Positions 11,857 through 56,986 of a stretch of 62,462 bases of DNA are shown piece by piece; positions within the stretch are counted from its first letter, which is position 1, and every line of letters starts with the position of its first letter. Under the pieces are notes generated by a model. It saw only the letters and a program-made list of their open reading frames with translations, was not told the origin of the DNA and did not search any database. A program made the position numbers and the translations under genes. This stretch comes from Acidobacteriaceae bacterium (lineage in GTDB: Bacteria; Acidobacteriota; Terriglobia; Terriglobales; Acidobacteriaceae), in contig JANXZM010000031.1 of the NCBI GenBank assembly GCA_025355505.1, forward strand, positions 1-62,462, read 5' to 3'.

Positions 11857-11925
11857 GTAGAGACGGGGCTTGCTGCGTTCCCGCGGATGCGGAAAAGCAG
11901 GAGACGGGGCAAGCCCCGTCTCTAC
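11857..11925. repeat. Palindromic repeat family D, copy 1 (two arms)
   Basis: The 69-bp unit starts GTAGAGACGGGGC and ends GCCCCGTCTCTAC, i.e. 13-bp perfect inverted repeats around a GC-rich centre. Related arms occur at 12781, 43951, 51419, 54095 (inside lpxB) and 54963. It lies between the adaptor and ATPase genes and has no T-tract. Confidence 0.8.
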
Positions 11926-43950: not shown

Positions 43951-43984
43951 TGTAGACAGGAGACGCGGCAAGCCACGTCTCTAC
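43951..43984. repeat. Palindromic repeat family D, copy 3
   Basis: TGTAGACAGGAGACGCGGC is followed by AAGCCACGTCTCTAC. The outer parts are inverted repeats (GAGACGCGGC / GCCACGTCTC). Confidence 0.7.
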
Positions 43985-51418: not shown

Positions 51419-51485
51419 GTAGAGACCCTGTAGCCCCGTCTCCACTTGGTCCGGAACCCAGAGACGCGGCAAGCCGCGTCTCTAC
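51419..51485. repeat. Palindromic repeat family D, copy 4 (two arms)
   Basis: It begins TGTAGAGACCCTGTAG and ends GAGACGCGGCAAGCCGCGTCTCTAC. The last 25 bp are a near-perfect hairpin (GAGACGCGGC AAGCCGCGTCTC). It lies in the 266-bp convergent gap 51233-51498, without T-tract. Confidence 0.8.
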
Positions 51486-53635: not shown

Positions 53636-53661
53636 GTGTGGCGCGGACACTCCTGTCCGCG
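53636..53661. repeat. Short palindrome family E, copy 3
   Basis: This is identical over 26 bp to 36206-36231, in the same orientation. It lies 23 bp from the end of lpxB. Confidence 0.8.
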
Positions 53662-53684
53662 GCCTTTGACTCACCGGATTATTT

Positions 53685-54866
53685 TCAGCAGATCATTTTC
53701 AGTATGATCTCCGCCGCCGTTTCCGAAGGATGTGCTCCAATGCCGCTCCCCTGCAGTCGCGCCTTCACCGCCGCTAAGCGCTGCATCATGCGCGCCCGCA
53801 GCTCACCATCGGGGATGATCTTGTTCATCTCCGTGACGATGTTTTCTACCGTGAACTTGTGCTGCACCAGTTCCGGCACAACCTCCTCCTCCGCAATCAG
53901 GTTGACCATCGCAAAGTAAGGAACCTTCACCCGCGGCTTGCCCAGCGCGTAGGTCAGCCGAGATACGCGGTACACCATGACAAACGGAGTACCCATGATT
54001 GCGGCTTCAACCGTAGCCGTGCCGCTGGCCACGATTCCGGCGCGGGAGTGGTAGAGCGCGGGCAGCGCCTCGGGAACTAAGTGAATATTCCTTTGTAGAG
54101 ACACGGCTTGCCGCGTCTCTGTCGGCTGCATCTGCGTCCCCATCAATCCCTTGAGAAACGACGCGTCCAGCGTACGCGCCACCGGCAGCAGAAATTCATA
54201 CTTGCTGCCCAGCCGATCCGCCGCCGCAAGGATCGTAGGCAGGTTCATGCACACTTCTTTCCGGCGGCTGCCCGGCATCAGCGTGATCCATTGTTTAGCG
54301 GCGTCGATCCGGTTCTCGTCCGCATACGCTTCGCGAGTAATTGCAGGCGCGGGCAGATCGGCCAGCGGATGGCCGACAAACTTCGCGTCCACTCCACGAT
54401 CGCGATAGAACTTTTCTTCGAAGGGAAAAATCACCAGCGCCTTGTTGACGTACTTGCGCAGCAACTTCACGCGTCCCTGCCGCCACGCCCAGAACTGCGG
54501 GCAGACGTAGTAAACGACAGGAATGCCACGCCTGCGCATCTGCCGCGCCACTCGCCAGTTGAAGGCCGGTGCGTCGATGACGACGGCCAGCGCCGGGCGT
54601 TTCTCATCGGCCGCACGAATCAATTTCCGATAGAGCCCCAGAATCTTCGGCAGATGGCTAAGAATCTCAGTGATGCCGACGACCGCAAGGTCTTTCGCGT
54701 CGACAACGATGTCGCATCCCGCAGTTCGCATGCGCTCCCCGCCCGCGCCGAAGAATTCAAGCTGCCCGGCCTGCGTAGGGACGGCCGCCCGCTGCCGCAG
54801 CGATTCGATCAGCTGCGCGCCATACATTTCGCCCGAGGCTTCACCGGCTGAGATGAGGATTTGCAC
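53685..54866 (-). CDS. lpxB: Lipid-A-disaccharide synthase
   Basis: This is 393 aa, slightly longer than usual (~380). LpxB joins UDP-2,3-diacylglucosamine and lipid X in the membrane face of the cytoplasm. Motifs are ISAGEASGEMYGAQLI (1-20), FFGAGGERM, VVIDAPAFNWRVAR and YVCPQFWAWRQGRVK. The C-terminal part has VASGTATVEAAIMGTPFVMVYRVS. Residues ~249-258 (TETRQAVSLQ) are encoded by a copy of palindromic repeat family D, inserted in frame between the two domains' last strand regions. The rest of the lpx genes are not nearby. It is adjacent to the MsbA-like exporter gene (167-bp gap). Confidence 0.96.
   Translation of the reverse strand: MQILISAGEASGEMYGAQLIESLRQRAAVPTQAGQLEFFGAGGERMRTAGCDIVVDAKDLAVVGITEILSHLPKILGLYRKLIRAADEKRPALAVVIDAPAFNWRVARQMRRRGIPVVYYVCPQFWAWRQGRVKLLRKYVNKALVIFPFEEKFYRDRGVDAKFVGHPLADLPAPAITREAYADENRIDAAKQWITLMPGSRRKEVCMNLPTILAAADRLGSKYEFLLPVARTLDASFLKGLMGTQMQPTETRQAVSLQRNIHLVPEALPALYHSRAGIVASGTATVEAAIMGTPFVMVYRVSRLTYALGKPRVKVPYFAMVNLIAEEEVVPELVQHKFTVENIVTEMNKIIPDGELRARMMQRLAAVKARLQGSGIGAHPSETAAEIILKMIC
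54095..54122 (+). repeat. Palindromic repeat family D, copy 5, inside lpxB
   Basis: GTAGAGACACGGC...TTGCCGCGTCTCTGT is a 28-bp hairpin, closely related to the intergenic copies. It adds ~10 codons to lpxB without a stop or frameshift. Confidence 0.8.
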
Positions 54867-54962: not shown

Positions 54963-55014
54963 GTCTGGACGGGGCTTGCCCGGTCCAGGGAGACGCGGCA
55001 ATCCGCGTCTCTAC
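54963..55014. repeat. Palindromic repeat family D, copy 6
   Basis: GTCTGGACGGGGCTTGCCCGG is followed by GAGACGCGGCAATCCGCGTCTCTAC; the second half is a clean hairpin. It lies 20 bp from the end of the MsbA-like gene. Confidence 0.75.
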
Positions 55015-55033: not shown

Positions 55034-56986
55034 TCAGTCGTCCGCGTTCGCAGTGACCGAGGGAGCCCCCGCCGGCATCTCCTGGTCTTTATATTGCAGC
55101 TGATAGAGCTTGTAGTAAATCCCACGCTGGGCGAGGAGTTGCTGGTGCGATCCCATTTCGCGGACCTGGCCTTTGTGCATCACGATGATCTTGTCGGCGC
55201 GCTGGATGGTCGAGAGGCGGTGCGCGATGATTAGCGCCGTCCGTCCTTCCACCATGCGGTTGAGCGCATCGCGCACCCGGAGCTCGGTCTCCGTATCTAC
55301 GCTGGAAGTCGCCTCGTCGAGAATCAGAATCTTTGGATTGTGCGCCAGGGCGCGCGCGAAACTGATCAACTGTTTTTGTCCGGTGGAGAGCGTCGAGCCG
55401 CGTTCGCGCACTTCCTCCTTGAATCCACCCGGCAAGGTTCGGATGAAGTCGGCGAGGTTGACGTCCTCCGCCGCCTGCTCCACGTCAGCGTCTTGAATGC
55501 GGGCCGTCCCCAACCGGATGTTGCCCGCAACCGTGCCGCTGAATAGAAACGGATCCTGCAAGACGACGCCAAAGCGGTTGCGCAGATCGTCGAGATTCAT
55601 CTCCTTGATATCCACGCCGTCGATGCGAACCGCTCCCCGCTGCACGTCGTAGAAGCGCATCAGAAGCGAGATCAGCGTAGTCTTACCCGCCCCGGTGTGG
55701 CCGACGACGGCGATAGTCTCGTTCGGTTCAAGCACAAAGCTAACGTCACGGAGAACCCAATCAGGCTCCGTGGTTAGTGGAGAGACGGGCGTCCCCGCCC
55801 GTCCACCCGTGACCGCAGCCTCTGGACGGACGGGGACACCCGCCTCCCCGCCGTCTCGTCCTGAAAAGTTGTATGCAAACCAAACATGCTCAAACTCAAT
55901 CCGCCCCGGCCCCTGCGGTTGTTTCGTGATCGCCGGCGACGTCACTTCAATCTTCGTATCCAGCAGCTTGAACACCCGCTCCCCGGCCGCCATCGCCGAC
56001 TGCAGGATGTTGTACTTCTCGCTCAAATCCTGAATCGGACGGAAAAAACGCTGCGCGTACTGCATGAAAGCGACCAGCACTCCGATCGAAGCCACGCCCC
56101 GGATCACATCATTCCCGCCAAACCAGATGATGCTGGCAATGGCAATCGCCGACAGTATTTCCACCACTGGGTAATAAACCGAGTACGCCATGATCGCGTC
56201 TTTAAACGCTTCCATATGCGAGGCGTTGATGTCGGAAAATTTATTAAAGGCCCGCTTCTCGCGATTGAAAAGCTGCAAGACCAGCATTCCGGAAACCGCT
56301 TCCTGCAAGAAAGAGTTGATCCGGGCGATCGCCGTGCGGATGCGCCGGTAGGAATCGCGCACCTTGTCGCGAAAAATCAGGGTCGCGTACACAATCAGCG
56401 GAAGCGCCGCAAACGTGATGAGCGCCAGCTTCCAGTTCATCTTCATCATGATGGCGATGATGCCGGCGAGGACGAACACATCCTCAAAAATCGAAACCAC
56501 GCCCGCCGTGAACATCTCATTCAGCGCATCGACGTCGGTGGTCACGCGTGTGACCAGTCGGCCCACCGGGTGCTTGTCGAAAAACCCGACGTGCATGTAC
56601 TGCAGGTGACAGAAAATCTGCCTCCGCAGATCGAACATCACCTTCTGGCCCGTCCACTGCATCAGGTAAGTCTGGATGAACTCAAACGTGAAAGTAAAGA
56701 CAAGAATGCCGACGTAAAGCCCGCCAATCTGGGCGATGCCGGTCAGCGGAGCGTCGCTGAGCCGGTCGCCAATCCAGGAGTGTGAGTTGGGAGAATTCGC
56801 CAGGTATTTGTCGATGGCGACCTTGGTGAGGAACGGCCCCAGCACGTCCAGGCCTGACTTCAGGATGATCGCGGCCAGCGCCACCGCGACGTGCAACTTG
56901 TATGGACGCAGATAGGTAAGCAGCCGCCGCATCAGCCGGCCGTCGTACGCTTTGCCTAGTATTTCTTCTTCCTGATTAGAAGCCAT
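55034..56986 (-). CDS. MsbA-like ABC exporter (permease-ATPase fusion)
   Basis: This is 650 aa. A six-helix membrane domain (residues ~25-335) precedes the ATPase: Walker A VGHTGAGKTTLISLLM, Q-loop VLQDPFLFSGT, signature LSTGQKQLISFARAL (GG replaced by TG), Walker B ILILDEATSSVD and switch His AHRLS. Residues ~373-407 (FSGRDGGEAGVPV... to ...SPLTTE) form an extra peptide between the A-loop (VWFAYN) and WVLRDVSF, encoded by an inserted palindromic element. It fits lipid A or lipid flipping, and lpxB is adjacent, but multidrug export is an alternative. Confidence 0.92.
   Translation of the reverse strand: MASNQEEEILGKAYDGRLMRRLLTYLRPYKLHVAVALAAIILKSGLDVLGPFLTKVAIDKYLANSPNSHSWIGDRLSDAPLTGIAQIGGLYVGILVFTFTFEFIQTYLMQWTGQKVMFDLRRQIFCHLQYMHVGFFDKHPVGRLVTRVTTDVDALNEMFTAGVVSIFEDVFVLAGIIAIMMKMNWKLALITFAALPLIVYATLIFRDKVRDSYRRIRTAIARINSFLQEAVSGMLVLQLFNREKRAFNKFSDINASHMEAFKDAIMAYSVYYPVVEILSAIAIASIIWFGGNDVIRGVASIGVLVAFMQYAQRFFRPIQDLSEKYNILQSAMAAGERVFKLLDTKIEVTSPAITKQPQGPGRIEFEHVWFAYNFSGRDGGEAGVPVRPEAAVTGGRAGTPVSPLTTEPDWVLRDVSFVLEPNETIAVVGHTGAGKTTLISLLMRFYDVQRGAVRIDGVDIKEMNLDDLRNRFGVVLQDPFLFSGTVAGNIRLGTARIQDADVEQAAEDVNLADFIRTLPGGFKEEVRERGSTLSTGQKQLISFARALAHNPKILILDEATSSVDTETELRVRDALNRMVEGRTALIIAHRLSTIQRADKIIVMHKGQVREMGSHQQLLAQRGIYYKLYQLQYKDQEMPAGAPSVTANADD
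55768..55866. repeat. Palindromic element inserted in frame in the MsbA-like gene
   Basis: About 100 bp. It contains the hairpins GACGGGCGTCCCCGCCCGTC (55784-55803) and GGACGGACGGGGACACCC.... It begins like the intergenic GTGGAGAGACGGGCG fragments and encodes Gly/Pro/Arg-rich residues. Confidence 0.75.

Follow-up and report, generated by a model that had tools for sequence, protein, structure and literature searches.

A GTAG-tagged REP element in frame inside the lpxB gene of an uncultured acidobacterium

The element in lpxB and its family

The window (the whole stretch of 62,462 nucleotides that was analysed) contains, at 53685-54866 of the reverse strand, an open reading frame of 393 amino acids that is listed with a GTG start, has no internal stop, and encodes lipid-A-disaccharide synthase, LpxB (Pfam PF02684, E 2.5e-90). 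Within this gene, at 54095-54122, lies the sequence GTAGAGACACGGCTTGCCGCGTCTCTGT, which on the forward strand begins with a GTAG tag at 54095, has a core that extends to 54119, and on the opposite strand codes for residues 249-258 of LpxB. Its hairpin consists of the stem AGACACGG/CCGCGTCT, in which one pair is mismatched, and the loop CTTG. REP elements are a kind of small repeat thought to be mobile, and a REP is the unit of REPINs. We confirmed that the segment is a REP, set in frame inside an intact gene of an uncultured acidobacterium; it belongs to a GTAG-tagged REP/REPIN family. An earlier note, written from the sequence alone, had described a 28-bp palindrome here that leaves the frame of lpxB unbroken and adds about ten residues (249-258), and its position, host gene, open frame and numbering all proved right: the LpxB loop is 14 residues longer than in the empty relatives L010, L012 and L016, and about ten of these residues are REP-coded.

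The lpxB REP of the window scored 35.4 bits, against scores below 13.4 for 99% of codon-shuffled genes and a top score of 18.6 among 1800; it is the single REP over threshold in this gene, with no doublet (REPIN) there. A REP profile built from 76 copies, with the lpxB copy excluded, found 102 REPs in the sequence fetched (approximately 310 kb, in which overlapping parts count twice), and none in five shuffled sets. In the lpxB mRNA, the REP hairpin has a folding energy of -17.7 kcal/mol (z -4.1).

Searching the window with up to 2 mismatches gave 7 hairpin matches, which correspond to 5 copies, two of them matched on both strands, where 0.22 were expected from shuffles. Pattern matches lie in the intergenic region between lpxB and an ABC transporter gene (54989-55014, reverse strand), as a single REP at 43959-43984 (reverse strand), and as two head-to-head pairs, one at 51419-51485 (51419-51442 forward, with a core one base shorter, and 51460-51485 reverse) and one at 11857-11925 (forward from 11857 and reverse at 11900-11925), the latter also found by the profile. 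As the earlier note had stated, the other copies are intergenic: none of the 4 remaining exact copies in the window is spanned by an ORF of at least 90 aa. Other small repeats occur nearby. A different GC-rich hairpin (GCGGACA...TGTCCGC) is located directly downstream of lpxB, at approximately 53640-53665, and the ABC transporter gene beside lpxB (55034-56986, reverse strand) has a length-variable linker just before its ABC_tran domain (from residue 412). This linker is made up here of a different type of GC-rich palindromic sequence; that of L012 and L126 contains a peptide that by eye resembles a second REP family.

Across the draft genome (4.16 Mb in 119 contigs), the exact pattern occurs at 93 places, compared to 0 for a reversed control pattern, and with one mismatch allowed at 161 places, compared to 1 for the control. 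The 93 exact places reduce to 79 loci once palindromes read on both strands are merged, and their consensus is GTAGAGACG[C/G]GGCTTGCC[C/G]CGTCTC. At stem pair 9/18, counted in 77 copies (2 of the 79 loci, which gave no clue to orientation, were omitted), C-G occurs 33 times, G-C 26 times and other combinations 18 times (G-T 2, non-standard pairs 16). In other words, the family combines the features by which GTAG REPs are recognized: a palindrome of 20-40 bp that carries a GTAG-type tag on one side, a stem (5-13 bp in such REPs) with paired variants and a short loop, and many copies (79 loci) that are mostly extragenic. Moreover, all 23 of the 23 REP pairs at most 120 bp apart are arranged head-to-head, making the family one that forms REPIN doublets.

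A count of copies inside coding frames, proposed in the earlier note, was carried out on these 79 loci. A mechanical ORF count, which overstates in-gene copies, placed 44 of 79 inside ORFs of at least 90 aa, compared to 4166 of 4620 positions drawn at random from the same regions; for ORFs of at least 300 aa, the values were 10 of 79 and 2638 of 4620. In-gene copies are therefore rarer than chance. A Pfam scan of 30 spanning ORFs from 28 loci, with most ORFs below 150 aa outside the scan, found a family in 8; the other 22, including long ORFs of L033 and L073, had none. We did not count L044, L051, L081, L093 and L101 as in-gene copies, as their REP is N-terminal or lies ahead of the domain. 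Besides lpxB, interior REPs were found in a gene for an Lhr-type helicase (L049), in that for leucyl-tRNA synthetase (L053) and in a DUF1800 gene (L105), so that lhr, leuS and the DUF1800 gene of the same genome carry in-frame relatives of the lpxB element, in leuS as a head-to-head doublet. Read by hand, the consensus element is open in 5 of 6 frames, 4 of which are used among the four genes. In lhr, doublets are recognizable by eye in L234, L236, L237, L239, L242, L245 and L252. The second REP family, tagged GTGG, codes for VVTGLxPVPAGxSPATTQ-like peptides at the lhr loop (L238, L239, L240, L250, L253): in L239 its doublet is nested within a doublet of the first family, and in L238, L240, L250 and L253 its sequence occupies the first family's place. 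It also occurs at another lpxB site, in the N-terminal part of the gene, in L004 and L006 and in shorter form in L027, and the window's own genome has 9 places that match its pattern within 2 mismatches, one of them exactly and none in the window.

Distribution in the genus and history of the lpxB insertion

The family is nearly confined to one genus. The exact pattern is present in 21 of 24 genus genomes, at 0 to 245 places per genome, and outside the genus in 1 of 60 genomes sampled from the class, where it occurs once. Summed over the 24 genus genomes, with palindromes counted on both strands, the two tags searched occur at 1259 places (GTAG) and 47 places (GTGG). A species-wide shift of tag, considered for the GTGG in L004, found no support, as that genome has 3 GTGG and 245 GTAG places. 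Genomes G009 and G013 have 0 exact GTAG copies, with 4 and 2 GTGG places, respectively; their lpxB genes (L008 and L007) still hold a decayed REP, a fading family thus persisting as a protein loop.

PF01797 (RAYT-type) genes gave 113 matches, spread over 22 of the 24 genomes of the genus, and their number rises with the copy number of the REP (rho 0.66, p 0.0004; rho 0.69, p 0.006 for the 14 genomes with a completeness of 90% or more). Among the 37 loci of these 113 matches that we examined, none has a RAYT gene directly flanked by a REP of the lpxB family, and no cognate transposase was found; 3 of the 37 have a REP in the fetched flank, at least 0.5 kb away, and one RAYT gene of the window's own genome lies approximately 1.5 kb from a REP. 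The link between RAYT and this REP family is thus circumstantial.

To follow the insertion across species, we compared 90 distinct lpxB genes, collected from 30 listed loci (56 of 61 genomes matched) and the best 80 of 187 MAG contigs. Within the genus, 17 of 24 genomes gave a usable lpxB; four had no match, and the fragments of G007, G015 and G023 were left out. The REP scan covers all 90 genes, and the loop comparison the 78 that were matched by the search expression. The usual LpxB loop is short (LIG..I.LVPEALPAL). A REP over threshold is present in 9 of the 90 genes, each time in frame and at this one loop; the other 81 have none. In a codon tree from which the insert columns had been removed, 12 genus members form one clade (96/96), with 15 of the 34 inner branches open in the Lpx trees. 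All 12 species of this clade have a lengthened LpxB loop, and the REP is recognizable in 8 of them: it matches the commonest family form perfectly over 25 bases in L003 and L006, shows few changes in L001, L002, L004 and L027, and is decayed in L007 and L008, where the score of L008 (17.3 bits) lies below the top shuffled score (18.6). The clade species L005, L011, L013 and L014 have no lpxB REP over threshold. Another LpxB loop, before the YEFLLPVA motif, is expanded by short repeats such as DRLQKDRL in L008, L027 and L029. In L027 (the lpxB of G019), the reading frame differs between two tblastn pieces near the contig end, so that either the gene is broken or the assembly is in error.

The insertion is not private to the window's genome, as close relatives share it. 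The earlier note had held that a segment shared by the LpxB of all close relatives should not be called an insertion; such sharing does exist in the nearest clade, but it does not extend beyond it, and because the short loop is found in three other members of the genus, L010, L012 and L016, the segment is still an insertion, and an old one. L009, which lies outside the 12-species clade, carries two head-to-head REPs (a REPIN) in frame at the same loop of lpxB. It is sister to short-loop L010 (100/99), and forcing it into a group with the 12 was rejected (p 0.014, for a group named after the tree was seen). When L014 is scored by eye as carrying the REP, the tree has 3 changes, at least 2 of them forced by starred branches. 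On this tree, at least two insertions would have struck the LpxB loop, unless clean losses took place in L010 and others. Loop length by itself is weak proof of insertion, because four clade species lack a REP over threshold and long loops of different make-up occur outside the clade, in several genes from beyond the genus (for example, L145, L150, L169 and L172). The corresponding loop of solved LpxB is likewise not short, and L029 has a longer loop as well.

AlphaFold models on a 41-row alignment (mean pLDDT 90.1 for the LpxB of the window and 88.7 for its L009 orthologue) place the insert in a predicted loop between helix 235-245 and strand 261-264. In the window's LpxB, the sole segment of at least 3 residues with pLDDT below 50 is 251-256, inside the REP-coded 249-258; in that of L009 it is 255-269, where the REPIN codes for residues 244-269 approximately. 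The REP-coded loop is probably floppy. In a Foldseek search, three solved LpxB entries ranked at the top (TM 0.65-0.69, rmsd approximately 21), the high rmsd meaning that the placement of the domains relative to each other differs. The earlier note's reading of a palindromic element inserted in frame, probably as a loop, thereby gains support, both from the models, with their single stretch of low confidence, and from the 81 of 90 lpxB genes that do without a REP.

Upkeep of the in-gene copies and competing explanations

We then considered how the in-gene copies are kept close to the family consensus. In lpxB, across the seven inner-clade species (all of them, not picked by REP preservation; 265 codons, L027 truncated), third-position divergence is 0.095 in the REP and 0.315 in the gene (P 0.004, random codons), and first- and second-position divergence is 0.196 in the REP and 0.071 in the gene (P 0.008). 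On the lpxB tree of the five copy-rich species (without L005 and L027), the REP underwent 1 third-position step where 7.4 were expected (P 0.003; 0.014 with contiguous windows) and 4 first- or second-position steps where 3.2 were expected; with L005 added, the values are 2 against 9.9 and 11 against 4.5. In the copy-poor L005, L007, L008 and L014 (L005 belongs to both the inner-clade and the copy-poor set), the silent deficit is gone (third positions 0.407 in the REP, 0.486 in the gene), and first and second positions differ by 0.370 in the REP and 0.142 in the gene (P 0.0024). Across 12 species, the score of the lpxB REP rises with genomic copy number (rho 0.69, p 0.013, ancestry uncorrected). 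Where the REP family is abundant, what is conserved in lpxB thus seems to be the DNA and not the protein. Third positions are similarly low in the first lhr REP (0.050 vs 0.353, P 0.0023), the second lhr REP (0.119 vs 0.350, P 0.023; alternative figure 0.200) and the leuS REP (0.044 vs 0.355, P 0.0005), although the lhr and leuS species were chosen for a recognizable REP, which biases these values to low divergence, and the upkeep tests cover 7-9 codons per gene. In the second lhr REP, first and second positions give 0.036 or 0.024, and codon periodicity is kept, as protein constraint would give. In the lhr of L237, both bases of one stem pair have been switched relative to near relatives, a single case that would fit conversion. 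The low silent divergence of the lpxB REP in the inner clade and its decay in copy-poor species suggest upkeep at the DNA level, by gene conversion or by constraint on the hairpin, over a selected peptide.

Several other explanations were weighed. That ordinary LpxB sequence happens to be palindromic might be thought of, considering that the length of this loop varies generally, but the core belongs to a family with 79 loci, agrees with its commonest form over 25 bases in L003 and L006, and sits at a single place in 9 of 90 lpxB genes; copy number rules chance out. A palindromic element of the Rickettsia type, or a MITE, would give a similar outcome, namely in-frame insertion common to orthologues, as the available text of PMC3767692 and PMC2229807 describes; the length, GTAG tag and head-to-head pairing are nevertheless those of GTAG REPs, making this origin highly improbable. 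Selection could instead keep the element in lpxB, its mRNA hairpin or its peptide regulating or improving LpxB. The stable hairpin, the conserved silent sites of the inner clade and the codon periodicity of the second lhr REP speak for this, but first and second positions changed faster than in the gene in the four copy-poor species, L005 lost the motif despite lying within the inner clade, the predicted confidence of the loop is low, and the silent deficit recurs in lhr and leuS, for which a shared function is unlikely. We consider selection of this kind improbable, and reject a functional peptide as the main cause, as the REP decays in copy-poor species; a separate function for the REP-coded peptide is improbable.

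Somewhat less unlikely, though still doubtful, is that the loop is a hotspot for repeated REP insertion, with fresh copies being new arrivals rather than maintained ones. L009 would be a separate event at the same LpxB loop, and different REP families share one lhr loop across species, nested in L239; yet the inner-clade copies agree in orientation and frame and have similar flanking codons, and those that L005, L007, L008 and L014 have at this position appear decayed on visual inspection. A further reading, which we regard as possible and put forward tentatively, is that in-gene REPs evolve in concert with the genomic REPs, conversion or copying by a transposase resetting them to the consensus. 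If true, LpxB, Lhr and LeuRS would have selfish DNA forced on them for as long as the family is alive, and the codons concerned would be freed and decay once it fades in a lineage. The normal codon periodicity of the second lhr REP makes this reading less likely.

The account we favour, and hold to be very probable as a whole, is that of a GTAG REP, nearly confined to one genus, whose old insertion in lpxB lies in a tolerated loop and is maintained at the DNA level. Judging by the tree and the alignment, the ancestor of the 12-species clade would have gained the REP in the LpxB loop between helix 235-245 and strand 261-264, the element presumably having been moved by a RAYT transposase, to which its anatomy points. 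The insertion would have survived because the element has no stop in the frame that is read and the loop tolerates changes in length; gene-breaking insertions would have been lost, consistent with the under-representation in long ORFs, and the flanks later trimmed by small in-frame changes. In copy-rich species, the in-gene copy stays near the family consensus, silent sites included, and in copy-poor species the REP has decayed and left a longer loop; both are seen in lpxB, over a small number of codons. The likely cause of this upkeep is either gene conversion by other copies or constraint on the hairpin, which the data do not separate.

Comparison with known repeats

The REP family appears to be new and its history is readable; in-gene REPs are already in print, and the concerted-evolution reading is the part that would be new. 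The earlier note knew of no such elements in Acidobacteria. This stands for in-gene copies, as a literature search of partial coverage brought up no description of REPs within genes of Acidobacteria; it does not stand for REPs in general, as broadly defined REP candidates have been counted in three Acidobacteriota, according to the accessible part of PMC12306157. Related transposases with atypical structures are described from Acidobacteria in the portion of PMC6006769 available. With our results, an acidobacterial genus joins the bacteria whose conserved proteins bear pieces of REP DNA. Insertions recur in several genes and can be traced across related species, and the genus includes species without the insert, a sister lineage in which the event happened separately, and descendants whose copy has decayed. 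Its copy-rich and copy-poor species make it testable whether upkeep is due to protein selection, the hairpin, or gene conversion.

The closest known system is that of the GTAG REPs, for which Di Nocera, De Gregorio and Rocco (2013, PMC3733652) reported in-gene GTAG and CGTC repeats, both single and as dimers. In the text available from that paper, which distinguishes 24 families, GTAG repeats are assigned to Proteobacteria, Cyanobacteria, Chloroflexi and PVC; Koribacter comes up in connection with transposase genes that have inverted repeats of a different kind, and RPE-4 and RPE-6 are classed among the CGTC repeats. The present family shares with these GTAG REPs, as described there, the GTAG tag, the short stem and loop, the many and mostly intergenic copies, and the head-to-head dimers. 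Some of the published repeats likewise lie in frame in known genes, single or as dimers coding for 20-30 residues, and placement in loops or linkers was suggested as the reason for their tolerance, as here. Unlike in the accessible text of that study, one insertion is here dated along the species tree and accompanied by silent-site tests. Similarly, the REPINs of Bertels and Rainey (2011, PMC3116915) are, as far as the text at hand describes them, inverted REP doublets like those found here in leuS, lhr and the lpxB of L009; they were, however, analysed in extragenic space, and the lpxB copy of the window is a single REP.

The earlier note had likened the element to Rickettsia palindromic elements. 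The likeness holds for its behaviour, that is, a palindromic insertion in frame in a conserved gene and at what is predicted to be a loop. According to the parts of PMC3767692 and PMC2229807 available, the Rickettsia elements also lie in frame in conserved genes, with orthologues sharing the site (PMC3767692 describes in-gene repeats at one site in Rickettsia orthologues) and with hotspots proposed. It does not extend to kinship, which we reject on anatomy (size, tag and pairing): here a 25-bp core carries a GTAG tag and all 23 close pairs are head-to-head, whereas the Rickettsia elements, by the same partial sources, are 100-150 bp or 105-146 bp long, or, for RPE-4 and RPE-6 in PMC3733652, are CGTC repeats; they lack a GTAG tag and belong to other bacteria.
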